A DNA stretch of 64,000 nucleotides from Nocardia vinacea. GTDB lineage: Bacteria > Actinomycetota > Actinomycetes > Mycobacteriales > Mycobacteriaceae. Numbering within the stretch: position 1 is the first letter of the stretch; every line of letters begins with the position of its first letter. A program made the translations under genes and the position numbers. The stretch spans positions 6,882,001 to 6,946,000 of the forward strand of contig NZ_CP109149.1 in assembly GCF_035920345.1 (NCBI RefSeq), written 5' to 3'. Below, piece after piece: positions 50,014 through 64,000 of the stretch. A model generated the notes under the pieces. The model ran no database searches. It had not been told where the DNA came from and saw nothing but the letters and a program-made list of their open reading frames with translations.

Positions 50014-50721
50014 ATGGGGACAATCGTCGATCTACAGGACAGGCCGGTGTACGGCCTGAGCCAGGTCGATCGCATCCTCGGCCTCAAAACTGGTACAGCC
50101 CGCCGATGGATCGACGGGTACCGACGTGGCACCAAGTCTTACCCACCCGTAGTCCGGTCAGAGCCGACAGGCGACGAGATCGTGACCTGGGGCGAGTTCG
50201 TCGAGGCGCGGCTGTTGTCGGAGTATCGCGAAGCTGGCGTTCCCTTGTTCAAGATGCGCCCCGTCGTTGAGCTGCTAAGAGCCGAACTCGATACAAAATA
50301 TCCCCTCGCCTCTGCCCGCACCTGGCTCGACGTCGACGGCAGAGAGATCGTTCGTCGAGCCCAGGAACAGACCGAACTCGACAAGCGGCTGGCGCTGGTC
50401 GAAGTCGTTCGCACCGATCAGACCATGCTGGAGTGGACTGCCCCCGCACAGGAATTCGCCGATTCGGCCATATGGAGTGACCAGAGCCGCGACGCCGTGC
50501 TCATCAGCCTCCGACCTCTACCTGAGATACCCCAGGTATTGGTCGACCCGCGACGCAGCTTCGGTGAACCATCAGTCAGGGGGGTACGCACCGACATCAT
50601 CGGTGAACTGATCCGCGCGGGCGACCCGCCCGAAATGATCGCCGACATGTACGAACTGGAACCAGAACTCGTCAACGCTGCTGTGCGGTACGAGCTGCTG
50701 CGTGTCCCACAGGCGAGCTGA
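50014..50721 (+). CDS. VapB45-like antitoxin (DUF433)
   Basis: 235 residues. The N-terminal region has a MerR-like helix-turn-helix (LSQVDRILGLKTGTARRWIDGYRRG), and the C-terminal 50 residues form a DUF433 domain (FGEPSVRGVRTDIIGELIRAGDPPEMIADMYEL). Length and order match the M. tuberculosis VapB45 (Rv2018) type. It would bind and silence the PIN-like protein encoded 11 bases downstream and repress the pair's promoter. First genes of the island after repeat B. Confidence 0.85.
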   Translation: MGTIVDLQDRPVYGLSQVDRILGLKTGTARRWIDGYRRGTKSYPPVVRSEPTGDEIVTWGEFVEARLLSEYREAGVPLFKMRPVVELLRAELDTKYPLASARTWLDVDGREIVRRAQEQTELDKRLALVEVVRTDQTMLEWTAPAQEFADSAIWSDQSRDAVLISLRPLPEIPQVLVDPRRSFGEPSVRGVRTDIIGELIRAGDPPEMIADMYELEPELVNAAVRYELLRVPQAS

Positions 50722-50732
50722 TCGTCTGAAAT

Positions 50733-51146
50733 ATGGCCGCTGTTGCTGGGCAGATTCGGTTCTATGTCGATGAAAGCGCGCTCGGTCTCGGCAAAGCGCT
50801 CGCGTTCGCGCGCAAGGACACGATTCACGTCGGCCACCCACTGATCCTGCCCCAATGCCCGCTCGGCGTACTGGATCCGGATTGGATCCCCGAGGTGGCG
50901 GCCCGCGGCCTGATCGTCATCTGCCGCGACAAGCGAATCCGGACAAAGCCCGGAGAGCTGCTCGAGATGAAGAAGGCCGGACTTCGCACATTCTGCCTAG
51001 GCGGCAAAAGGGACCAATCGACTTGGGACTGGCTCACTCGCGTTGTCCGCTGGTGGGACCAGATAGAGAATATCGTCCACACCCGGCCCGATGGGCCATG
51101 GTTCTACCTGATCAACCAGAACGATCTCGCCGAACTGATCGTCTAG
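50733..51146 (+). CDS. VapC45-like PIN-domain toxin
   Basis: 137 residues with the Mut7-C/DUF5615-like PIN fold. The first acidic residue is in RFYVDESALGLGKAL and a second cluster is VICRDKRIRTKPGELLEMKKAG. The C-terminal WWDQIENIVHTRPDGPWFYLI resembles VapC45 (Rv2019, similar length). Expected to be a ribonuclease held in check by the upstream antitoxin. From 51,147 to 51,600 (about 450 bases) there is no gene I can support. Confidence 0.82.
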   Translation: MAAVAGQIRFYVDESALGLGKALAFARKDTIHVGHPLILPQCPLGVLDPDWIPEVAARGLIVICRDKRIRTKPGELLEMKKAGLRTFCLGGKRDQSTWDWLTRVVRWWDQIENIVHTRPDGPWFYLINQNDLAELIV

Positions 51147-51600: not shown

Positions 51601-52524
51601 ATGAGATATCCTTCATCGATGCCGCCAAGTTCATCCTCGCCATCGGGCAGCGGAAGTCGACCGAACGGCGACGCGAGCGAACTCGAGATCGGCCCGTTCC
51701 TGAAGTGGCCAGGCGGGAAGCGATGGCTGGTGGAATTGCATGCCCACCTTTTTCGCTTTCAGTTTGACCGATATATTGAGCCATTCCTCGGTGCTGGCTC
51801 CGTCTATTTTCATCTCAAGCCTGAGCAGGCGATCCTTGGCGACTTAAACGAGGATCTAATCACTGCCTATCGAGGCATTCAACAGGACCCCGACGGGGTT
51901 CAGATCCTACTTGAGAAGCATCACGTCCTACACAACAAAGAATACTACTACGAAGTTCGGAAAGAGATCCCACCTGGGCTCGTGGCGCGGGCTGCCCGGA
52001 TCATTTACTTGAACAGGACATGCTTTAACGGAATATACCGCGTGAATCAACAGGGGCTCTTCAATGTCCCGATCGGAACCAGAGATCAGGTTGTGCGCGA
52101 CACCGATAACTTCGCGGGAGTTTCCCGTCTGCTGCACGGCGTGGATTTGCGACACGGGGACTTCGAACCACTTGTTGATGAAGCACAAGCCGGAGACTTT
52201 GTTTTTCTCGACCCTCCTTACACTGTCCGACATAACACTAATGGCTTTATCAAATATAACGAGAAGCTCTTCTCATGGGACGATCAGGAAAGACTGGCTA
52301 AAGCTGCCACGCGGGCAGCTGAGCGTGGGGCGAAAGTAGTGGTAACCAATGCGTCTCACATTACTGTGCGCCGCCTGTATCCAGGCAGCGTTTTCAAGTT
52401 TCGACGCGTAAGCCGGTTCTCGTCGATCTCAGCTTCAGGCGATAGTCGTAAACATTTTGAGGAACTAGTGATAACCAATAAGCACACTGGGAGGGCGCGT
52501 GCAGTCAGAGGATTTCTTCAATAA
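51601..52524 (+). CDS. D12-class DNA adenine N6-methyltransferase (Dam/DpnM-like)
   Basis: 307 residues. FLKWPGGKRWLV is the family's AdoMet-side motif, FIEPFLGAGSVYFHL-like text (YIEPFLGAGSVYFHLKPE) is motif I, and FLDPPYTVRHNTNGFIKYN is the catalytic DPPY motif IV. It should methylate adenine in a short palindrome; GATC is usual for the class but not certain here. Start is uncertain (51,586 or 51,601; the first 30 residues are low-complexity Ser/Pro). AT-richer codons than the chromosome suggest transfer. Its end overlaps the HerA gene by 26 bases. Confidence 0.92.
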   Translation: MRYPSSMPPSSSSPSGSGSRPNGDASELEIGPFLKWPGGKRWLVELHAHLFRFQFDRYIEPFLGAGSVYFHLKPEQAILGDLNEDLITAYRGIQQDPDGVQILLEKHHVLHNKEYYYEVRKEIPPGLVARAARIIYLNRTCFNGIYRVNQQGLFNVPIGTRDQVVRDTDNFAGVSRLLHGVDLRHGDFEPLVDEAQAGDFVFLDPPYTVRHNTNGFIKYNEKLFSWDDQERLAKAATRAAERGAKVVVTNASHITVRRLYPGSVFKFRRVSRFSSISASGDSRKHFEELVITNKHTGRARAVRGFLQ

Positions 52525-54532
52525 ATTGGAGTACCAGGACACACCACTGGCAGCTCTAACGGATTTCTTGGATGCCGAGCAGCGCTACGAACATGCTCAA
52601 CAGATTGATAAGATGCGATTCGTCGGTTATGTCCTCGAGCTAGGTTACGACACCGCCACCATAATCACTTCGGATCCTTACAAGGTGACTGTCGGCGGCA
52701 TTCCGCGCGGCTCCTTCCTCATCCTCGCACCGCACGATCTGAAAGGTCTCGCACCACATTTCACACTGCTGCGGGTCAGCGATACAGCGCCGACTCCACT
52801 GTCAGGACAGGTGCAGCAGACGTACTTCGAACTACACAAGAAGTCCATGCCAGAGCTGGACGTGTGGACGCAGAGCGAGTTGCAGTGGGGAGCGCTTCGG
52901 TCCGCAGTGCTCGGCATGTTCTACCCGGACAAGAATGACCGGACCAAGATAGCGTTCTCCGGCGACGTAAACACTGTGGTCAGCGCCCACCGATACCGGG
53001 TTTATGCACCCGACGAGGCATTGCTGGACCTGATCGTCAACGGCTTGGTGAAGCGGAAGGACGGTGAGCCGTTTGGGATCGGTGACCTACGTCCGACAGA
53101 GAACGAACTTGCCTCCATCCTCAACGCTGATACTGGAAAGGCGACCTCGACAAGCGTCAAAGTTTCCGTGGAGGACTTCAAGGGTGCCCGAACCGCAATG
53201 TTCGGCAAGACACGACTGGGGAAGTCGAACGTGGTCAAGCTGCTGGCTCAAGCCATCATTGACTCGACCAAGGACAATCGGTCAGTCGGACAGCTGATCT
53301 TCGACATCAACGGAGAGTACGCCAACGATAACGAGTGGGAGGGCTCAAGATCCATTCGCAGTGCCAACGAGGATCTGTGCGACGTGTACGCACTCACTCA
53401 GCGTCCGCAAACTCCATCGAAGCCGCTGCGGCTGAACTTCTACGAGCAACCCTCCTCAGCGATTGACATCCTCAGTTCCTTGCTGTCCCAGGACAACAAG
53501 AAGTCCGACTATATCGAGGGATTCGCGAGCGTCACGCTCCCATCGATCGACGAAGTGCAACACGACAACGAGCACGGTAGCCACACTCGAGGCATGCGGC
53601 GCATCCAGACCTTCTGGGCAATCTTGCATGTTGCCGGGTTCATCGCGGACGAACCACGTATGGCCGGGTTGAAAAGAGGAGAGGCCGGCTGGTTCACTGT
53701 GCGGGCATCGGAGAGCGTCTTCGATCCGGCATTCAGTCAAGCTGTCCGTTCCGAGGTATATGGGAAGGGAAACGAGCCGCAGAAGCCGATGTCGCTGGCC
53801 GAGCTCGTCAGCGAGCTGCGGCAGATCATCGGTTTCCTCCGCGAAGAGCCATCTGATGGGCCTCGCAAGAAGGTCCACGAGGAGCTGGTAAAGAAATTCG
53901 AAGCAGACGACTTCGCCTTGTTCGAGTTCTTGTCACCACGACGATCGTCGAGCACCGGACCGACGCTGCTCAATCGATACCGGCTGTATCACCACCCACG
54001 AGCAACCGATTTCGAACGTGAGGTTCTGGCCGCTCTCGATGCGGGTCGCACCGTGATCCTGGATCTGGGAAACGCGACCGACCAGATACGCACATTCTTC
54101 GCCGATAGTCTTTCTCGGGCAGTATTCAGCCATCAGGAAGACAAGTTCACCGCAGCAAACCTCGGTAAGCACTACGTGCAGCTGTATTTCGAGGAAGCAC
54201 ACAACCTGTTCCCCGCCAAAGCGGACCTCAAAGGCGTTTACGCCCGATTCGCCAAAGAGGGTGCTAAATTCCACATCGGAATGACCTACTCGACCCAATC
54301 CCCGTCGACCATATACGGCGAGCTTCTCACCCAGACGGAGAACTTCTTCGTCGGGCATCTGTCCTCGTCGGACGAGACCAGGGCACTGGCCCGGCTCCAG
54401 CGGGCATTTGTCGGCATCGAGGAGGAGATCATGCGCTCTCGCACACCAGGTTTCATGCGCATGCTCACCCAGTCACACCGATTCGTGATCCCCGTGCAGG
54501 CGAAGCTGTTTGAGGCCAGGAGCGGGAGCTGA
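52499..54532 (+). CDS. herA: HerA-like hexameric DNA-pumping ATPase
   Basis: 677 residues. The N terminus has a HAS-barrel-like part (RFVGYVLELGYDTATII). Walker A is GKTRLGKS (236-243), followed by the HerA block QLIFDINGEY (about 265-273). Walker B is YVQLYFEEAHNLF (acidic pair 565-566), then the family's FHIGMTYSTQSPS sensor segment. HerA forms rings that drive DNA end processing with the NurA nuclease. GTG 52,499 with GGGAGG upstream lies inside the methylase gene, and NurA follows after one base, so all three are coupled. Confidence 0.9.
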   Translation: MQSEDFFNKLEYQDTPLAALTDFLDAEQRYEHAQQIDKMRFVGYVLELGYDTATIITSDPYKVTVGGIPRGSFLILAPHDLKGLAPHFTLLRVSDTAPTPLSGQVQQTYFELHKKSMPELDVWTQSELQWGALRSAVLGMFYPDKNDRTKIAFSGDVNTVVSAHRYRVYAPDEALLDLIVNGLVKRKDGEPFGIGDLRPTENELASILNADTGKATSTSVKVSVEDFKGARTAMFGKTRLGKSNVVKLLAQAIIDSTKDNRSVGQLIFDINGEYANDNEWEGSRSIRSANEDLCDVYALTQRPQTPSKPLRLNFYEQPSSAIDILSSLLSQDNKKSDYIEGFASVTLPSIDEVQHDNEHGSHTRGMRRIQTFWAILHVAGFIADEPRMAGLKRGEAGWFTVRASESVFDPAFSQAVRSEVYGKGNEPQKPMSLAELVSELRQIIGFLREEPSDGPRKKVHEELVKKFEADDFALFEFLSPRRSSSTGPTLLNRYRLYHHPRATDFEREVLAALDAGRTVILDLGNATDQIRTFFADSLSRAVFSHQEDKFTAANLGKHYVQLYFEEAHNLFPAKADLKGVYARFAKEGAKFHIGMTYSTQSPSTIYGELLTQTENFFVGHLSSSDETRALARLQRAFVGIEEEIMRSRTPGFMRMLTQSHRFVIPVQAKLFEARSGS

Positions 54533-54533
54533 G

Positions 54534-55871
54534 ATGCCGTACCAGGGTGGACAGCGCCTCACATCGACCGAACGTGCCAGCAAACTGGGGCATCTGGAGG
54601 TCGTGAAGAGCCCGTTCGTCAGGCAGCTGGTCGATCAGTTTGAGCGGCCAGAGACTTCCGACGAGGAGCCGGGCAAAGACCTCTGGGAGGAGTTCGATCC
54701 GTCGAGTGCCGAACCTCTAGGTTTGGTGTTGGCCGTGGACGGGTCGTTCCAAGCAGTCACCTCTAGCGATTATCCACCGCGCTCGGTCGCCTTCATTAAG
54801 ACAGCCCTGGTGCGGATCGATCGACGCCAGCTCGACAAGATCGACAAGGAGCTGCCGCACCCAGTTTTGATGAAGGCACTTATGTCCGAATCGGCACTCC
54901 AGTCGTCCACCGTACTGCCCTTACGCAACATCAAGGTGCCCGGAACGTCGAACTACGACCTGGTACGCACCATCATCCGCGACTCGTTCCAGATCGAGTC
55001 GGACGGCCTTGTCCACCAAACGCTCAAGTGGTTGGCCTACCGGAAATGGAGAACCGATGAGGCGAGCGCATCACCGGAATTCCGGTGCCCCCACTGCCCC
55101 AACGACATTCCCGGCCTGCCCCACGATGCAGACACCGGCACTTGTGGTCGCTGTGGCGGCGAGGTCTACCTGTCGGACATGATCGGCTTCCACCTTGAGA
55201 TGGGTGAAGATCAGGCGCCCGACAGCGTCGCCTCGGCCTACATGCTGGTCCACGAAACACTGCTACTGCTGTCTGTGGTCCGTCACTTCTGGCAACGCAG
55301 TGACTTGGCCTCGTTGCGCAACGTACTCCTGATCAAGGACGGGCCCCTGTCGCTGCGCGGTCAGTACTCCAAGCTGGTCGACAACATCCGAGATCTTTTG
55401 GCATTCGCCTTCGACTCAGGCTTTCCGATCCACATCATCGGCCAGGAGAAGACCGGGCGATTCGTCGATCACCTGCACGAGATCGAGCGCTTCACCAAAC
55501 CGAAAGTGCGTGGCGACCTTCCCCGCTACGCGATCCTGTCCCATCGCTACGTCCGCCAGCAAGTTGACCATGCACCCGAACGGGTCAATCCCTATGGACT
55601 GAAGACGAATTACGGCGAGAAGGTTCTGGTCAAGCTGGATTCTCACACATCGATGGCGCTGTCTGTACCGACCGGCTACTACAACCCCAGCCAAGACTTC
55701 CCCGCCAGCAAGAACGACCTGATCGGCCTAGACCGAATCCTGGCCACCCTTCCCAGACTCATCAGCTACCAAAACGAGGGCGCCCTCGTACCGATCGCGC
55801 TTGCCAACGGTGTCGCATCCCTCTCGTCTTACCCCTCAGCTGCTGTGCTGAAGCTCTTTGCGGGCCTGTAG
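54534..55871 (+). CDS. nurA: NurA-family nuclease with zinc-ribbon insert
   Basis: 445 residues. NurA motifs are visible: the first catalytic acid in GLVLAVDGSF (D69), the second in LLIKDGPLSLRGQY (D269), and a C-terminal HTSMALSVPTGYY block. A four-Cys knuckle, CPHC (185-188) and CGRC (204-207), sits between them and is not part of minimal NurA. NurA is a 5'-3' DNA nuclease that works with HerA, its neighbour here. ATG 54,534 follows GGGAG. Convergent with the Res-Mod operon beyond an IS110 relic. Confidence 0.85.
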   Translation: MPYQGGQRLTSTERASKLGHLEVVKSPFVRQLVDQFERPETSDEEPGKDLWEEFDPSSAEPLGLVLAVDGSFQAVTSSDYPPRSVAFIKTALVRIDRRQLDKIDKELPHPVLMKALMSESALQSSTVLPLRNIKVPGTSNYDLVRTIIRDSFQIESDGLVHQTLKWLAYRKWRTDEASASPEFRCPHCPNDIPGLPHDADTGTCGRCGGEVYLSDMIGFHLEMGEDQAPDSVASAYMLVHETLLLLSVVRHFWQRSDLASLRNVLLIKDGPLSLRGQYSKLVDNIRDLLAFAFDSGFPIHIIGQEKTGRFVDHLHEIERFTKPKVRGDLPRYAILSHRYVRQQVDHAPERVNPYGLKTNYGEKVLVKLDSHTSMALSVPTGYYNPSQDFPASKNDLIGLDRILATLPRLISYQNEGALVPIALANGVASLSSYPSAAVLKLFAGL

Positions 55872-56278: not shown

Positions 56279-56845
56279 CTCGTCGACCACAGGGAGGACA
56301 TCGTCACCGAACGCACCCGTGTGATCGCACGGCTGCGCTGGCATCTGCACGAACTGGACCCGGGCTGGATGCCGCCGGGCAAGCTCGAACGCGCCAGCAC
56401 CTACGACCGCGTAACAGTCCACCTGGCCCAATTCGACGGGCCCGTCGCCCGATTGGCGGTGACACTGGTCGAGCACTGCCGACGACTCACCATCGAGATT
56501 GACGGACTGGCCGACGAAATCGGCCAGCGGATCCATCAGGTCGCGGCGTCACTGTTGGCCATCGTCGGCTGCGCGGACCTGACCGCGGCGAAGATCATCG
56601 GCGAAACCGCCGGCGTCGACCGCTTCCGATCCAAGGACTCCTTCGCCCGCCACAACGGCAGCGCACCACTACCGGTCTGGTCGCCCAACCGCTCGCGACA
56701 TCGCCTGTCCCGCACCGCAAACCGGCAACTCAACGCCGCACTCCACCGCATCGCCCTCACACAGGCACGCTGCGACCCAGACGCACGAGCACTGCTGGCT
56801 GCTTGTATCCGGCGATCTTCTCCAAGGCGCCATTACGCCGCTTGA
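56279..56845 (+). pseudogene. IS110-family transposase, N-terminally truncated
   Basis: 189 codons in frame matching the second half of IS110 transposases: LVDHREDIVTERTRVIARLRWHLHELDP, then the C-terminal Transposase_20 domain LAIVGCADLTAAKIIGETAG with the catalytic Ser region LSRTANRQLNAALHRIA. A TGA directly precedes the frame and the N-terminal DEDD domain is missing. No IS ends could be made out. It separates the NurA operon from the convergent Res operon. Confidence 0.85.
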
Positions 56846-56942: not shown

Positions 56943-59543
56943 TCAGACTTCGGCGTAGTAGTTGACAGCAAACTGGGAGTTGTAGAACCAGTCGACCGGC
57001 TGGCCGCCGGTCATGACGATGCCCCGTACGTCCTCGTCCTTCAGGTTCAGCATCTTCATTACGTCGCTGACCTTGCTCAGGGCCTCGATTCGGTGGAACG
57101 CGTGACCATGCTCCTCGGCGAATCTGGCAAGCGCCTGAAGCTTGACCAGTGAGTCGTCCAGATGGTGGCCGTGCGGGTCGACGATCGACGCCTTTGCTTC
57201 ACCGTCGACCTCGTGAAAGAAGACGAAGTCCGGATGCATCGAACGCCAGTTGCCGCTCGTCTCATCGCGGTAAGCGATTCCGAGCGAGTCGGCCGTCTGT
57301 CGCGGCGGGTTCCGGTACCACGCGAGTGCGCCGGCACGAGCGATCTCATGCTTGACGATCTCGCCTTCCCAGTCGTTCAACTTCGTGATGGGAGCTTCGC
57401 CGTTCTCGTCCGCCATCAAGTGCAACATCACAAGCTCGGCGCGGCTCAGCTGACCGTCGTCGTCCTCCTCAATGTAGTCCTCAATACGGGTGCGCGGCCG
57501 ACCGAGCCGATCGATTTGAGGGGTCGCAGCGAGCGCGTTGATGTCGCGATACTCCTGTTGGCGATCGTCGGGCAAGTCCTGGATCGCGTCCGCGTGCTCC
57601 TCAAACAGCTCTTCTGCCATCTGGTCGGACTTCTTGTCGACCGCTTCACGCACCTCCGGAACGCAGGCGAGCGCCGCGGCCCGCACGAACGCATCGCGCA
57701 ACGCGTCGTCGCTGTCGTCGTCGTCCGTCAGGTGGTCGACGTAGGCCTGTGCGATATCGGAGCCGAACACCTTGCGTGCGTCCTCGAACGCAGCACGAAT
57801 GGCTCGCTCGTCAGCCTGCTCGACGATGTTGGTGTATTCGACGCTCTTCCCGCCAAACTTCGCCGAGATTTCCTGCAGACGGACCGCCAGCACCTCAGCG
57901 GTAGCCGCCTTCACGCGGGTCTTGTACAGCTCGGCGGACTCGTCGAGCACCCGGTGGATTTGCCTGGTGACCTCAGCCAGTGCTTCCTGGCGCACGCTGT
58001 CAGTCGACAGTGAGAGCGCGAGAGAAGCAAGGCGTTTAACGGGTGACGTGCCGCGCTGGGGAATCGTCATTGACGGCAGGTTGTCCCATACATTCCAGAC
58101 GATCTCTGGGATTACCTTGTTCGGCGTCATGACGCACTCTTCGAGGATCACCTTCCGAGTCGTCGGGTCGGGCACGCCGTCGATCTGGGCGGTCAGCAGC
58201 TTGACGACATCACCAGCGGTCTTGCGGTCGAAAAATGGCAGCAGGCAGTCGACCGAGTTGAGCTCGTCGTCACCCGGGACTCGCCGCGCAAGTGGCGTGC
58301 GCACCATTCGGCCGAGCAGTTGCTGGATGTGGTCGTGATCCTTCGCGGGCCGGAACGACACCAACACCTCGGCACGCGGGCAGTCCCATCCAGTCGAGAT
58401 CGCGTCCTTGGCGATAATCACCCGAACGTGCGTGCGATCCTCGACCACTTGTGGCTCGATCCAGCCAACCTGGTGAGGCCCGAACGTCTGCATCGAGTGT
58501 TCGCCAAGTACGTGCCGGACGGAGTCAGACCCCAGCTCGGGCATCACCTCGAAGATGACGCCAAGCGCCTCGCCTAGCTTGTCGTGGTCTGGGGTGTTAG
58601 GTGCTTGCAGGATCAGCAGCGGCTTGACCACGTCTGGCAACCCCTGCGACTCGCAGTACGTCTGCCACCGCTCGGACGAGTGCTTCAACTTCTTGGCGGC
58701 CCGACGAACCAGGACCATATCGATCGCCTGCGCCTCGGCCGGGATGTCGACCTTCACGACGTCCTTGACTAGTCCCGACTCCTGCACCTGGAAGCCATCG
58801 ACCTGGACAGGCGGCAGATAGCGCCGGTCACCCGACACGTGTGCGTCATCCATCGCTTCCTTGAAGTCGCCGATGGTCGCGGAGATGCCCCAAACGATCG
58901 GCACGGGCGGATAGCCGGCGTGTCCGTTGATGAGGCGCTGAACGATCGTCGACTTGTCGCGGGTCGTCTTCGTGCCGAACCCGCGGTGCGCCTCGTCGAC
59001 GATCAAATAGAGCGTGAGATCAGGATCGCCGATCGTATTGGCGATCGTCTGCCAGATCGTGTATCCCTGCAGGTCGGGCTGGACGGAAGCGTGCATCCCG
59101 TCCAGAACTTCCTCCTCGGCAAAGACCTCGTGGCCACGCGTCAGCAACGACGACTTCGACAGTTTCTGCGTGTTGAGGAAGTACACCTTGCCTGGTTCAA
59201 GCTTCGGCTTCGAGAACGGCGGCTCGATCGTGACAAGGTCCGTCGACACGACCTTGTCGGACGCCTCCATGATGCGGAATCGCGTCTGCTCGTTCAGGTT
59301 CGGATCGTCGGAGAACCAGATGACTACGGCGCCGTCGTCCGGCTCGAAATCAAAGTCGTCATTGCCGTAGAACAGCGACTCGATCACGGCTGACGCGATG
59401 ACAGTCTTGCCAGCGCCCGTGGTGGCGGACAACGAGACTGAAGTGGGGGTAGTCTCGCGCTCTTGGATCGTCTTGGCTCGGTCGAGCGTAGCAAGCATGT
59501 CCTCGAGCGCGGCGCGCTGGTACGGCTTGAGGGTGAACTTCAT
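56943..59543 (-). CDS. Type III-like restriction subunit (SF2 helicase-nuclease)
   Basis: 866 residues. The SF2 helicase starts with LKPYQRAALEDML (Q-like motif), Walker A TTGAGKT (41-47) and DEAH (183-186), with a late motif HIQQLLGRMVRTPLA. A coiled region leads to a C-terminal PD-(D/E)xK-like nuclease: HPDFVFFHE (PD at 771-772) and SIVDPHG (789-792). The third position, normally (E/D)xK, reads D-P-H, so the metal site is a variant. It overlaps the Mod gene by ATGA. Expected to translocate on and cut unmethylated DNA with Mod. Confidence 0.88.
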   Translation of the reverse strand: MKFTLKPYQRAALEDMLATLDRAKTIQERETTPTSVSLSATTGAGKTVIASAVIESLFYGNDDFDFEPDDGAVVIWFSDDPNLNEQTRFRIMEASDKVVSTDLVTIEPPFSKPKLEPGKVYFLNTQKLSKSSLLTRGHEVFAEEEVLDGMHASVQPDLQGYTIWQTIANTIGDPDLTLYLIVDEAHRGFGTKTTRDKSTIVQRLINGHAGYPPVPIVWGISATIGDFKEAMDDAHVSGDRRYLPPVQVDGFQVQESGLVKDVVKVDIPAEAQAIDMVLVRRAAKKLKHSSERWQTYCESQGLPDVVKPLLILQAPNTPDHDKLGEALGVIFEVMPELGSDSVRHVLGEHSMQTFGPHQVGWIEPQVVEDRTHVRVIIAKDAISTGWDCPRAEVLVSFRPAKDHDHIQQLLGRMVRTPLARRVPGDDELNSVDCLLPFFDRKTAGDVVKLLTAQIDGVPDPTTRKVILEECVMTPNKVIPEIVWNVWDNLPSMTIPQRGTSPVKRLASLALSLSTDSVRQEALAEVTRQIHRVLDESAELYKTRVKAATAEVLAVRLQEISAKFGGKSVEYTNIVEQADERAIRAAFEDARKVFGSDIAQAYVDHLTDDDDSDDALRDAFVRAAALACVPEVREAVDKKSDQMAEELFEEHADAIQDLPDDRQQEYRDINALAATPQIDRLGRPRTRIEDYIEEDDDGQLSRAELVMLHLMADENGEAPITKLNDWEGEIVKHEIARAGALAWYRNPPRQTADSLGIAYRDETSGNWRSMHPDFVFFHEVDGEAKASIVDPHGHHLDDSLVKLQALARFAEEHGHAFHRIEALSKVSDVMKMLNLKDEDVRGIVMTGGQPVDWFYNSQFAVNYYAEV

Positions 59544-61663
59544 CGTGCGGCCCTCCCGGCCTCGATCTCGAAGTTGCGCAGGTAGGACGAGTACAGGCGA
59601 ACCGGTTCGATGTGGTCGGGCAACTGCCGAACCATGGCCTCGAACAGGCGATCTTCGTCCGTGACGACGAACGCGTGGGTGAGACCGTCCTGAGCCTCGA
59701 CCGCCTTAATGAATGCTTCGCTCAAGTCCAAATTCGCGATCACGCCGTACACCTCACCCACATCCCAACCGGACACGATGTCGTCGATACGTCGTCCCCT
59801 GGATCCTGCTCGAAGCCATAGGAACGGGGCGATCTTCGCGAACTCACGGTTGGACGACACACGCATCGCAGACTCGTAGGTGAGTGTAAAGAACTCGACG
59901 TTCTCGTTGAAACCGTCCGACATCGGGAACTCGTCGGTGAACTTGTAGTCGCCCATGATTGGGGTTCCGTCAGGTGTCGTGCCGCTGATCGCTGCGGTGA
60001 TCCTGGGCTTGGTGATGTAGTCACAAATACCCTGCGTTTCCCAGCCCACATCGCCCGGCCGGAGACCACGCTTTCGGAGGGTCTTCTGCTCTTCGGCGCT
60101 AACCTCGTTGTTAGTGATCGAGATGGAACGACGATTGCCTCCGTCCTGCTTGTTCAATCGCACCACCGCATGCGCCGTGGTGCCGGAGCCAGCGAAGAAG
60201 TCCAGCACAACGGCATCAGGCTTTGATTTGAGCACGTGCGACAAAGAATCTTCTACCGCGAACAGCGATTTCGGGAATGGAAACCTCCGTCCGGGGATCA
60301 GCTCGCGGAGCACCTGCGTACCGCCACGCTGGGCATCGTGTGCAGCGTGGTTCCAATGAGTTGTCGGCATGACGACTCGTCCGGTGACGTACTCTGCAAC
60401 GACCGAACCGTCTTCTGCTCGTGCGGTCACACGGGCCGCGCCAGTGCCAATGTCGGAGATGATGCCAGCAGTCAAGTACGAAATGACAAACTGCTGCGGC
60501 TCCGTGGGTTTCGGGCGACCGACCCGGATGTATCCTTCAGCAAGTCGCTTACGTGCGGCATCGGGAGTGAGACCCCAGTTCATCTCTGTACCGTCAGGCC
60601 GGATTGGGAAAACAGATACACAGCCAGGAACAAGGGGGGAAGTTTCCCGGTCCACTCCGTGAGCGAGCGGCTCTCCAATTTCCCGGATTCGACGGCTCTC
60701 CGTATCAACATAAATCGGGTAGAATTGTGCGGTTCCGCCTTTAGCGGTACCGCGTCGCGAAGCAAAGTCACTGCGGCGAAGTGTGTCCCAAACCACCCCC
60801 TTAGCCTCTTCTTCTCGTTGCTGCGGCAAGATTGCACACACGCCAAAGCGTGCATAGAAGATGTACTCGTCGGTTCGGCTGAACTCAGTTGATCGACCTG
60901 CGCCTGCGGGATTGATGACTGACGAAATCATCTGTATGGAGGCTTCCGGAAACGTCTGTTCCAGCAGCAGCCCCAGCCGCAGGTACTCCTTCTCATCAAT
61001 GGTGACGATGAGCACCGAGTCGTCGGGGTTCAGCAACTCCTTCGCAAGCAACAGACGGCGCTCCATGAACGCTAGCCACTTCGAGTGGCGATAGTGGTCG
61101 TCGGACTCGACGTAGTCGTTGTTGTACTTCCAGTCCTTCGCCCCGGTGTTGTAGGGCGGGTCGATGTAGATGCAGTCGACTCTCCCACGATGGGTAAACA
61201 GCAGCGCTTGGAGCGCGTGGTAGTTCTCGGAGTTGATGACGGTGTGGAACGGCTTGTCACCCCCGCGTTCGACCCTGCCGGTGGAGACTAGGCCCGGGTA
61301 GATGGGATCACGGAACTCGGCGACGACGACGAGGTCGTTCGCGAGCACGGACGACACCTCGTCGGGGTCGTCCACCGCCACAACGTCAGCCCACCGCTCG
61401 CCGTCTTCGGTGTAGATCTTCGCGACCCGGTAGAGACGTTCGTTCTCCTTTTTCGGCATTTCGCCGCAGTCCGGGAGGATACGTACCTTGTCGTTCTTGC
61501 GTACGGGCCTACCCGGCAGCTCGACTGCCTCGGGGACGTGCCGCTCGAAGTTCAGTCCGAACGCGCGGCGGTCTGCGAGCGCGTTGGTTTCGCGCTGCAG
61601 ATCTTTCGCCAACTGGGGGTCAGTGTTGGCGACTTGGCGGAGGAGGTCGTTGAGGCGTGACAC
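59540..61663 (-). CDS. Type III-like DNA methyltransferase (Mod)
   Basis: 707 residues from GTG 61,663 (AAGGAAG upstream); the longer frame from 61,867 would overlap the helicase gene by 190 bases and is rejected. The order of motifs is that of the beta class used by type III Mod proteins: catalytic CIYIDPPYNTG (DPPY at 168-171) before the AdoMet loop VLDFFAGSGTTAHAV (490-496). The 300 residues between hold the likely target-recognition part. Methylates adenine in an asymmetric site and, with Res, forms the restriction complex. Confidence 0.91.
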   Translation of the reverse strand: MSRLNDLLRQVANTDPQLAKDLQRETNALADRRAFGLNFERHVPEAVELPGRPVRKNDKVRILPDCGEMPKKENERLYRVAKIYTEDGERWADVVAVDDPDEVSSVLANDLVVVAEFRDPIYPGLVSTGRVERGGDKPFHTVINSENYHALQALLFTHRGRVDCIYIDPPYNTGAKDWKYNNDYVESDDHYRHSKWLAFMERRLLLAKELLNPDDSVLIVTIDEKEYLRLGLLLEQTFPEASIQMISSVINPAGAGRSTEFSRTDEYIFYARFGVCAILPQQREEEAKGVVWDTLRRSDFASRRGTAKGGTAQFYPIYVDTESRRIREIGEPLAHGVDRETSPLVPGCVSVFPIRPDGTEMNWGLTPDAARKRLAEGYIRVGRPKPTEPQQFVISYLTAGIISDIGTGAARVTARAEDGSVVAEYVTGRVVMPTTHWNHAAHDAQRGGTQVLRELIPGRRFPFPKSLFAVEDSLSHVLKSKPDAVVLDFFAGSGTTAHAVVRLNKQDGGNRRSISITNNEVSAEEQKTLRKRGLRPGDVGWETQGICDYITKPRITAAISGTTPDGTPIMGDYKFTDEFPMSDGFNENVEFFTLTYESAMRVSSNREFAKIAPFLWLRAGSRGRRIDDIVSGWDVGEVYGVIANLDLSEAFIKAVEAQDGLTHAFVVTDEDRLFEAMVRQLPDHIEPVRLYSSYLRNFEIEAGRAAR

Positions 61664-61677
61664 GTGTCGATTCTTCC

Positions 61678-63177
61678 TTACGAATCCGGTGAGACTGTGA
61701 CGGTCCCCCGCGCAAACGAGGCAAGGATGCGCTGGTGGGTCTGGCGTGGTAGATGGCGATTGCCCGGCTCGCCGAACGGGGTGCCCGGTCGAGCAGGAGC
61801 CTCCTGAAGCAGCTTGTCGAGGCCGGGGCGCGACACCATCAGCAACCCGTGGGTGGCGCGCGTGCACGTGACTGCGAGGCGGCCGAATGCCGAATTGAAC
61901 TCATCCAGCTCGGACGCGCCGGTGAGTGGGTGGATGGCGATCGTGATGCCGTTCGTCTGCCCCTGCCATGAGTCGACCGTGGAGGCGATCAGGTCGGACG
62001 CGATCAGGTTATGTTTAGCGCTGAGGCGGGCGACGGCGTCGGCGGCGTCGTCAACCGCTTGGTTGCGGGTGGCGAGAATGGCGATGAGGGTGTTGGCTGG
62101 GGCAGAGCCAGGGCGGTCCACATTGGTCTTGCCGCTCGGTGTTCCGTCGTCGTTGTAGACCTGCTCGAAGAGGGCAAACCCGGCTGCGAACAGGCCGTCG
62201 AGAAGAGTCTCGACGAACTCGATGAGCGGCAGGTCGACATCGGCGGCTTCGGCGTCGGGCAGCCCGTCGACTTCAAGGAGCGTAGGGACTCCCGTGGCGA
62301 CGGACTCCCACACGGCCTTCGCCGGGCCGGACAGGTGGCCCAGCTCGATTGCACGGTCGCCAGGTGCGGCAACGCAGTTGAGCGACTCGAACTCGGGGTA
62401 GAACGCGCGCCACAAGCCCAGTTGCTCGCCGGTCGGACGCCAGACCGCGGGCAGTTCGGTCGTCCACGTCTTGGTGTCGTCCCCGTCGTAGGAGGTCGGC
62501 CAGGCGCGGTAAGGGTTGAAGCCGGGGTCGCCACGCCACGGGTTTTCCGCGATCTCCAGTGGCGGCAGCTGGCCGACGTCGCCGACACCGACATGGATGG
62601 GTGCGGTGTAGGTGATCCTGTCGAACAGGTGATGCGGCAGTTGCCATGCCTCGTCGACGAACAGGACGTCGAAGCGGTGGTCGCCATGGAAGGCGGACCC
62701 GAAGTGGTTCGAAACGTACTGGCGAGTCATTCCGAACATGTGGGTCGTAGTCAGCACCACGGGCACGTCCTGGGGAATCGCCTTCACGGAGTCGACGACC
62801 ATAGCCGACGCCTTGACCCAGTCCGGCACGTCATTGAGGACGCGCGTGGACGCCCAGAGCCACACGCGGTCCTTGCCGACTTCGTCCCCGAGGGACGCGG
62901 CGAGTGGCCAAAGCTGCCGGTTCTGGAAGGCAGTCACGGCGACGCGCAGGCACTGGGGCTGAGCGATAACATCGCGGACGAGACCGCGCAACAGGAACGA
63001 CTTGCCCGCACCGGCGGCGGCTTTCAGCAGGATGCGCTGGACGTCGGAGCTGCCGTTAAGCGCGTCGAGGAGCTGTCCCTTGGCGAACTTGGCCGCGGCC
63101 TCGTTCTGGGCCGCGGCGCGCGAGTGGTGACAGGCGTCAGTAGCGACGAGCAACGGTGATTTGAACGTGACGGTCAT
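61678..63177 (-). CDS. SF1-type helicase/ATPase of the Mod-Res operon
   Basis: 499 residues. P loop KAAAGAGKS (52-60), Walker B FVDEAWQL (DEAW 175-178), the SF1 motif III GDVGQLPPLEI, and an arginine-finger motif VI TCTRATHGLLMV near the C terminus. This is a helicase core without an obvious nuclease or partner domain, related to UvrD/Upf1-like or DUF2075-type ATPases. Not a usual part of type III restriction systems. It lies 14 bases before Mod and 3 bases after the unknown gene, so it belongs to the same transcript. Confidence 0.87.
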   Translation of the reverse strand: MTVTFKSPLLVATDACHHSRAAAQNEAAAKFAKGQLLDALNGSSDVQRILLKAAAGAGKSFLLRGLVRDVIAQPQCLRVAVTAFQNRQLWPLAASLGDEVGKDRVWLWASTRVLNDVPDWVKASAMVVDSVKAIPQDVPVVLTTTHMFGMTRQYVSNHFGSAFHGDHRFDVLFVDEAWQLPHHLFDRITYTAPIHVGVGDVGQLPPLEIAENPWRGDPGFNPYRAWPTSYDGDDTKTWTTELPAVWRPTGEQLGLWRAFYPEFESLNCVAAPGDRAIELGHLSGPAKAVWESVATGVPTLLEVDGLPDAEAADVDLPLIEFVETLLDGLFAAGFALFEQVYNDDGTPSGKTNVDRPGSAPANTLIAILATRNQAVDDAADAVARLSAKHNLIASDLIASTVDSWQGQTNGITIAIHPLTGASELDEFNSAFGRLAVTCTRATHGLLMVSRPGLDKLLQEAPARPGTPFGEPGNRHLPRQTHQRILASFARGTVTVSPDS

Positions 63178-63180
63178 TGG

Positions 63181-64000
63181 CTACTCCACGTCGTCCATCG
63201 TCAGGTCCTCGGGCGGTTGCTCGGCCGGCCGGTCGGCCGGGTTGGGCAGGCTCTCGTCAGCGGCGTTGACATCGAACGCGTCCGAGTCGATCACCGGCGG
63301 CCACACCTGCGGGTTGAGCTCACCGCGAGCGCGGCGGCCTGCAAGAATGTCAGACCACTCGGCCTCCGACGTCTCGTGAGGCTTGCAGCACCACTGGTGG
63401 TTTGCGGGGGCGTCGATAAACGAGTCGGGTGTGCATGTCTGCTTCGGCGCGGACGACGAGTCGACGCTCGGCTTCTCCACATTCAGCCACACGTCGCCCT
63501 TGTTGGTGGAGAACCACGAGAAGTCTGCGACGATCAACTCGTCGCCGACGGCGAACCCAGGGTCGTGGTGGGGTGCCCATGTGTAATGGCGAAGCGGTGC
63601 CCCGGTGGCCGCGAGCTCGCCGATGGGCATATGGGAGACCTTGAAGCTGCCCTTCTGGGCCTGGAGGGTCACGTCCTCGGCCTCTACTAGGGCGTAGCCG
63701 TTCAAGTGGAGCGCCACGATGCGCGACTCGTCGCCAATGCGACGGGAGTCGACTTCGAGGGTAAGCGGGTCGTCGATAACGACGCGAGCCAGTGCGAGTT
63801 GTCTGGTGCCCGCGTCCTGGGCAGCGTCGTAGGCGGCGAGCGGGTTCGTCAGGACGGTCACTTGTGCGTCGAACTTGTCGTCCGCTTCGAGCAGCGGCAC
63901 CGCGTCGTTGCGCCACCAGCGGGTGGTGCGACCGAACCGGACGAGGTCGAACGCATGCAAGTTGAGGCGTCGACGCCAGACGCGCTGGGCGTCGGCCTCC
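63181..64000 (-). CDS. Unidentified protein of the Mod-Res operon (5' part beyond the window)
   Basis: The minus-strand frame is open to the window's edge, so only the last 272 residues are seen; the TTG at 63,960 is internal. Visible parts have a beta-rich look (RIVALHLNGYALVEAEDVTL), an aromatic HYTWAPHHDPGF segment, and a Trp/Cys/His cluster (CTPDSFIDAPANHQWCCKPHET) that could bind a metal. The acidic Pro-rich end follows NPADRPAEQPPED. It is three bases from the helicase gene. I do not recognise the family. Confidence 0.75.
   Translation of the reverse strand, partial: EADAQRVWRRRLNLHAFDLVRFGRTTRWWRNDAVPLLEADDKFDAQVTVLTNPLAAYDAAQDAGTRQLALARVVIDDPLTLEVDSRRIGDESRIVALHLNGYALVEAEDVTLQAQKGSFKVSHMPIGELAATGAPLRHYTWAPHHDPGFAVGDELIVADFSWFSTNKGDVWLNVEKPSVDSSSAPKQTCTPDSFIDAPANHQWCCKPHETSEAEWSDILAGRRARGELNPQVWPPVIDSDAFDVNAADESLPNPADRPAEQPPEDLTMDDVE

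Follow-up and report, generated by a model that had tools for sequence, protein, structure and literature searches.

The stretch of DNA analysed here (the window) comprises 64,000 nucleotides of Nocardia vinacea (positions 6,882,001 to 6,946,000 of contig NZ_CP109149.1, assembly GCF_035920345.1), whose genome is a single contig of 10.36 Mb. Three tightly packed genes at 51601–55871 code for a DNA methylase, a HerA-type motor and a NurA-fold nuclease, and have the following features ("same-order" denotes loci that carry the three genes in this order):

51601–52524, plus strand: gene for a Dam/DpnII-family DNA adenine-N6 methyltransferase of the D12 class (PF02086, E 3e-42; TIGR00571, 216 bits)
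52210–52221, plus strand: catalytic DPPY motif of the methylase, read from the sequence (DPPY in 47/47 aligned same-order proteins, window included)
52499–54532, plus strand: gene for a HerA-type DNA-pumping ATPase, TdpA-like
53204–53230, plus strand: HerA Walker A motif, GKTRLGKSN (kept in at least 46/47 same-order proteins)
54185–54211, plus strand: HerA Walker B motif, YFEEAHNLF (kept in at least 46/47 same-order proteins)
54534–55871, plus strand: gene for a NurA-fold nuclease, TdpB-like
54738–54740, plus strand: NurA D69 (motif VDGS), predicted to bind metal; the same residue in all 14 diverse homologues compared
55086–55154, plus strand: NurA CPxC...CxxC cluster (C185, C188, C204, C207), predicted zinc site
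55338–55340, plus strand: NurA D269 (motif IKDGPL), predicted to be the other catalytic acid; likewise the same residue in all 14 diverse homologues

The initial annotation, made from the sequence alone, had called a D12 methylase, a HerA and a NurA with intact motifs at 51601–55871. We confirmed these calls, and the gene coordinates fit the packing it described, with a 26-base overlap between the first two genes (52524/52499) and a one-base gap before the third (54532/54534). The trio was also said to use AT-richer codons than its surroundings, and we found a lower GC content. The best structural matches of the window HerA and NurA models were TdpA and TdpB, with E-values that are partly circular for the two profiles that included a TdpA- or TdpB-like row, the other searches against the PDB being free of such rows. 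In Pfam, NCBIfam and PADLOC 2.0.0 the window NurA had no matching family, and specifically it gave no match to the Pfam NurA family PF09376 at E 0.05. Its four cysteines are all invariant in an alignment of 31 sequences; in the alignment of 14 more diverse homologues the cluster is partly lost in the divergent members and absent from the TdpB-like row.

Among solved structures, the methylase is closest to DpnM (2dpm, E 9.5e-51), with E. coli Dam next, and no other D12 methylase was found in the host genome of 10.36 Mb. At the positions that we take, from Dam-DNA structures, to be the GATC contacts of E. coli Dam (K9, N120, R124 and P134), the window protein carries K, N, R and P, and the same residues occur in 38, 45, 47 and 45, respectively, of the 47 same-order methylases. 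It differs conservatively at Y119 (F) and L122 (I), presumably two further contact positions of Dam. Since the DNA-contact residues match, the window methylase is predicted to methylate GATC, most likely as m6A. The window shows no shortage of GATC, with 576 sites against a Markov expectation of 555.

Exact peptide patterns taken from the NurA alignment were run against one genome per species and returned 56 loci, a set that favours close kin because exact patterns were used. The order methylase-HerA-NurA was present at 44 of them; L059 has HerA-NurA followed by another D12 methylase, and L021 a complete pair at a contig edge. A complete HerA was missing at the other 10, where we found a contig edge (L022, L044, L045 and L057), a single, nearly full NurA (L047) or NurA fragments (L052, L054, L055, L058 and L061). 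Together with the window, four relatives, 4 of 6 chosen Deinococcota stretches and 20 of 26 loci from surveys of three phyla, the scan provided a non-random sample of 75 complete HerA-NurA pairs, from which L108 was excluded since no NurA was recognised there. A modification gene adjoins 73 of these 75 pairs, and 47 of them, window included, have the exact methylase-HerA-NurA order, in at least nine phyla. The 73 partners are 49 Dam-type methylases (47 upstream, 2 downstream), 12 divergent D12 methylases, 8 of N6/N4 type, 2 of N4 type, one other D12 enzyme and one TdpC. The exceptions are L021 and L176; at the latter, HerA-NurA lies directly upstream of apparent type I hsdR-hsdM-hsdS genes and a methylase of its own was not seen. 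For 20 pairs identified solely through NurA, 80 flanking proteins were compared with Pfam, and 19 of them match PF02086 (11) or PF01555 (8). The database search proposed in the initial annotation thus led to 47 same-order loci, window included, and the fear that the trio might be rare and never conserved as a unit is not borne out: it is a conserved, mobile unit and not a chance neighbourhood. At L059, a Deinococcales locus, a gene for a GIY-YIG/DUF4357 protein precedes the three genes.

On a tree of HerA, the 47 same-order proteins and that of L021 separate from 26 others with a branch support of 100 (SH-aLRT only), and TdpA sits far outside on a very long branch. The same-order group spans Actinomycetota, Pseudomonadota, Bacillota, Bacteroidota, Spirochaetota, Planctomycetota, Myxococcota, Thermodesulfobacteriota and Deinococcota, with the phyla intermixed on the tree. 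Partner type changes 8 times along it, where seven labels require a minimum of 6 changes and shuffled labels gave a mean of 24.8 (0/200 shuffles were as low). Across the 47 same-order loci, pairwise identities of HerA and NurA correlate with r = 0.90 and those of the methylase with either at 0.58–0.60, values that are descriptive, the sequences being related. Branches thus have different methylase classes, HerA and NurA vary together, and at the Thermus Tdp locus (L106) a PAPS-reductase-type gene (PF01507, TdpC) stands in place of a methylase.

Canonical NurA genes gave a different picture. None of 20 PF09376 loci from Deinococcota (20 of the 26 matches were fetched, and HerA was near NurA by profile in only 3/20) had a methylase within about 15 kb, as judged by the same methylase profiles, which derive from the trio family and detect that family's methylase types; a parallel Pfam scan of these loci reports only families with at least 5 members and cannot show zero. 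In a further control with a piece of TdpA, 14 of the 16 loci were weak matches, presumably to DnaX and not HerA; of the HerA loci that it gave, L189 has a weak N6/N4-methylase match adjacent, and L190 a NurA-like ORF beside HerA and no methylase. A HerA search of plasmids and phages returned seven records, four of them with a methylase (two Vibrio phages, Halorarius and Deferribacter). In all three cyanobacterial plasmids (L263, L266 and L267) a small HTH regulator gene precedes HerA-NurA, with no methylase within about 5 kb; these pairs may be decoupled, may rely on a methylase elsewhere or may have another role. On the Deferribacter megaplasmid (L265), an IS200/IS605 TnpA-TnpB element interrupts HerA.

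The distribution of the trio is patchy. Among 99 genomes, including that of the host, six have any match to the NurA profile: the close type occurs only in the host and in a congener (G045), whose trio is 76–84% identical to that of the window, and a divergent type in four others (G026, G039, G041 and G082). Surveys by the NurA profile found it in at least 10/396 genomes of Actinomycetota, at least 1/398 of the Thiobaca phylum (the match being the seed genome itself), at least 13/299 of the Paenibacillus phylum (several matches being weak or fragmentary) and at least 11/296 of the Larkinella phylum, all lower bounds since at most 4–5 candidates were scored per genome. All three of the viral contigs carry a Dam-type trio surrounded by phage genes (ten chosen proteins were assigned over the three contigs). 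In L270 its neighbours are a repressor and an integrase; in L269 and L271 a portal gene occupies one flank, and the opposite flank holds replication genes (L269) or dUTPase genes (L271). Two Vibrio phages (L262 and L268) carry the row integrase-HerA-NurA-methylase-excisionase, with a methylase of another class than that of the window; the HerA gene of Vibrio phage PQ189353 is broken into two ORFs. We found no near match to the L012 copy in E. coli genomes, and none to the window DNA in plasmids. Patchiness within the genus, lower GC, the lack of flanking genes in common with its two closest relatives and carriage by phages together mark the horizontal spread of the trio.

The genes around the trio in the window are as follows:

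50014–51146, upstream of the trio: DUF433/HTH_66 antitoxin-like and PIN_10 toxin-like gene pair
56321–56845, between the trio and Mod-Res: IS110-family transposase remnant of 174 aa, which matches the C-terminal part of the model
56943–59543, minus strand: type III Res
59540–61867, minus strand: type III Mod (PADLOC MTase_III, E 8e-255)
61678–63177, minus strand: AAA/SF1-like ATPase
63181–63960, minus strand: gene without an assigned product, which may run past the window

The minus-strand row (56943–63960) adjoins the trio. The toxin-antitoxin pair and the Mod-Res operon named in the initial annotation are present, but neither seems to travel with the trio: at E 1e-5, none of the ORFs of at least 90 aa outside the trio at 40–64 kb of the window had a counterpart in the DNA flanking the trios of the two closest relatives, a comparison in which ORFs were picked by length, so that a small gene could be missed, and the relatives' flanks were about 5–8 kb long. 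We therefore rejected both as parts of the cassette, and the nearby type III Res belongs with its neighbouring Mod-Res genes. More broadly, 132 flank proteins from 33 loci matched 478 PADLOC families, and 117 proteins from 20 arbitrary places matched 53, where redundant families are counted and not proteins with any match. The loci were picked evenly (36 of 62 usable), with the near-duplicates L024 and L072 and, for its length, L015 dropped. Models of Septu PtuA/PtuB matched up to 4 flank proteins each, against 1 each at arbitrary places. Enrichment of the trio's flanks as a defence island is only suggestive.

Among known systems, the nearest named one is TdpABC of Thermus, which An et al. (2025) are said to have described as an anti-phage system that senses phosphorothioation, the DNA mark made by the partner reportedly inhibiting both translocation and cutting by TdpAB. 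Like the trio, it combines a HerA-type ATPase and a NurA-fold nuclease with an adjacent DNA-modifying gene (L106). The window has a TdpA-like HerA and a TdpB-like NurA but no TdpC: its third gene codes for a D12 methylase where TdpABC has a PAPS-reductase-like enzyme, and the order modifier-nuclease-ATPase of L106 differs from the methylase-HerA-NurA of the window. Since the branch of TdpA is very long, we regard TdpABC as a distant cousin. The trio also resembles type II restriction-modification of the DpnII kind by its Dam-family methylase, closest to DpnM and with intact motifs (PF02086, DPPY), but in place of a site-specific restriction endonuclease it has a HerA motor and a NurA nuclease. 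With Sir2-HerA (Nezha) and DUF4297-HerA, the comparison suggested in the initial annotation, it has in common the pairing of a HerA motor with a nuclease-type partner in the context of defence; it is distinct from both, having no Sir2 or DUF4297 Pfam domain and carrying instead the NurA-fold nuclease and the methylase. According to the accessible parts of PMC10853773, HerA/FtsK motors have also been recruited against invaders in HerA/FtsK capture systems and DndFGH, with nucleases and sensors that differ from those of the trio; the word NurA is absent from the text of that paper. The statement that no named system has exactly this gene set holds for the papers listed, although TdpABC is a named relative; none of the matches listed in the open literature describes the set, and an earlier mention in Iyer et al. 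2004 or in the TdpABC paper is possible. The trio should work like restriction-modification and like TdpABC, but it falls outside both because it has no restriction endonuclease and no TdpC, and so lacks a defining feature of each. It is most likely an uncatalogued immune system.

HerA hexamers pump duplex DNA and NurA dimers cut DNA. From this knowledge of the family and the precedent of TdpAB, we propose that the Dam-type methylase would mark host DNA, most probably by placing m6A at GATC, and that a hexameric HerA ring would pull duplex DNA into a NurA dimer that cuts both strands. Marked DNA would stall or fail to feed HerA-NurA and survive, and unmarked invading DNA would be degraded from an end or a break. 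With a probability of about 0.6, the trio is a restriction-modification-like immune cassette that spares GATC-methylated DNA and destroys unmarked DNA through HerA-NurA, a reading in which we infer the activity and site of the methylase, the HerA-NurA complex, its inhibition by the mark, and phage resistance. The similar role put forward in the initial annotation is supported, and survives the tests of conservation and of a repair function. Against it stand the HerA motor itself, in which no recognition domain for sensing m6A is seen, the pairs that lack a methylase of their own nearby (the three cyanobacterial plasmids, L190 and L176) and the great distance to TdpA.

In a rival reading with the same biological role, the methylase would be the site reader of a complex with HerA-NurA, in which unmethylated sites license pumping and cutting and hemimethylated sites are methylated, as in the logic of type I/III or BREX systems. 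We consider such a complex unlikely, if still a serious contender. The partner is nearly always a site-specific DNA enzyme, no recognition domain is seen in either HerA or NurA, and a modification gene is adjacent in 73/75 pairs; yet the methylases found beside HerA-NurA belong to unrelated classes, the distant cousin has a phosphorothioation enzyme instead, the cyanobacterial plasmids have no methylase nearby, and the methylase sequence follows those of HerA and NurA less closely than these two follow one another. Because methylase classes differ and methylase-less pairs exist, sensing of the mark by HerA-NurA itself is slightly favoured over a methylase that reads.

Other roles appear less probable still. 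Phage copies that lie beside integrase, repressor or structural genes might point to counter-defence by a mobile element, whose methylase would shield phage or plasmid DNA from GATC-cutting enzymes while HerA-NurA removes competing DNA or aids takeover. However, the 56 scan loci are genome or MAG records (which may include prophages), and cargo that a lysogen expresses typically sits next to integrase or repressor genes, making this role improbable. Even less probable is a housekeeping end-resection pair beside an orphan Dam, the general repair function that the initial annotation had raised against its own proposal. The window pair has the same HerA and NurA folds as the archaeal or Deinococcus pair, but it lacks PF09376, is patchy (any NurA-profile match in 6/99 genomes, a close one in 2), is carried by phages and is linked to a methylase across phyla, with no such link seen at 20 canonical NurA loci; given its distribution and methylase linkage, we consider this reading unlikely. 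For the HerA-NurA of T. kodakarensis, which cuts both strands, antiviral defence has been suggested, according to the accessible parts of PMC12977600. The least credible option is a type IV-like attack of HerA-NurA on methylated invader DNA; methylation and degradation genes are linked, but with the methylase in the operon itself, the host's own chromosome would presumably be marked and become a target.

If the restriction-like cassette is real, this conserved, phage-carried system from no fewer than nine phyla would be a further class in the catalogue of prokaryotic immunity, TdpABC would gain methylating relatives, and NurA-like nucleases outside repair would be explained. It would also raise the question of whether a DNA-pumping ring can read a small base mark. 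Tentatively, HerA-NurA might even be a general mark-gated DNA shredder without sequence specificity of its own, silenced by whatever modification its partner makes: m6A at GATC or elsewhere, methylation of the N4/N6 type or, in the distant cousin, phosphorothioation of the backbone. Such shredders would form a separate restriction class, with specificity residing wholly in an exchangeable modification enzyme and TdpABC as one branch.

Within the same-order group, the methylase looks to have been replaced twice, once in L107 with L169 and once in L008, since divergent methylases there accompany HerA and NurA proteins within the range of the group; these loci offer natural experiments on mark reading. 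Mean identity to the other methylases is 33–35% for L107/L169 and 34% for L008, compared with at least 44% for the remaining 44 loci. The HerA and NurA proteins of L008 are typical of the group, and those of L107/L169 are at the low end of its range. L107 and L169, which are sisters on the HerA tree, share a methylase in which two of the Dam contact positions are altered (N120 to K and P134 to G).
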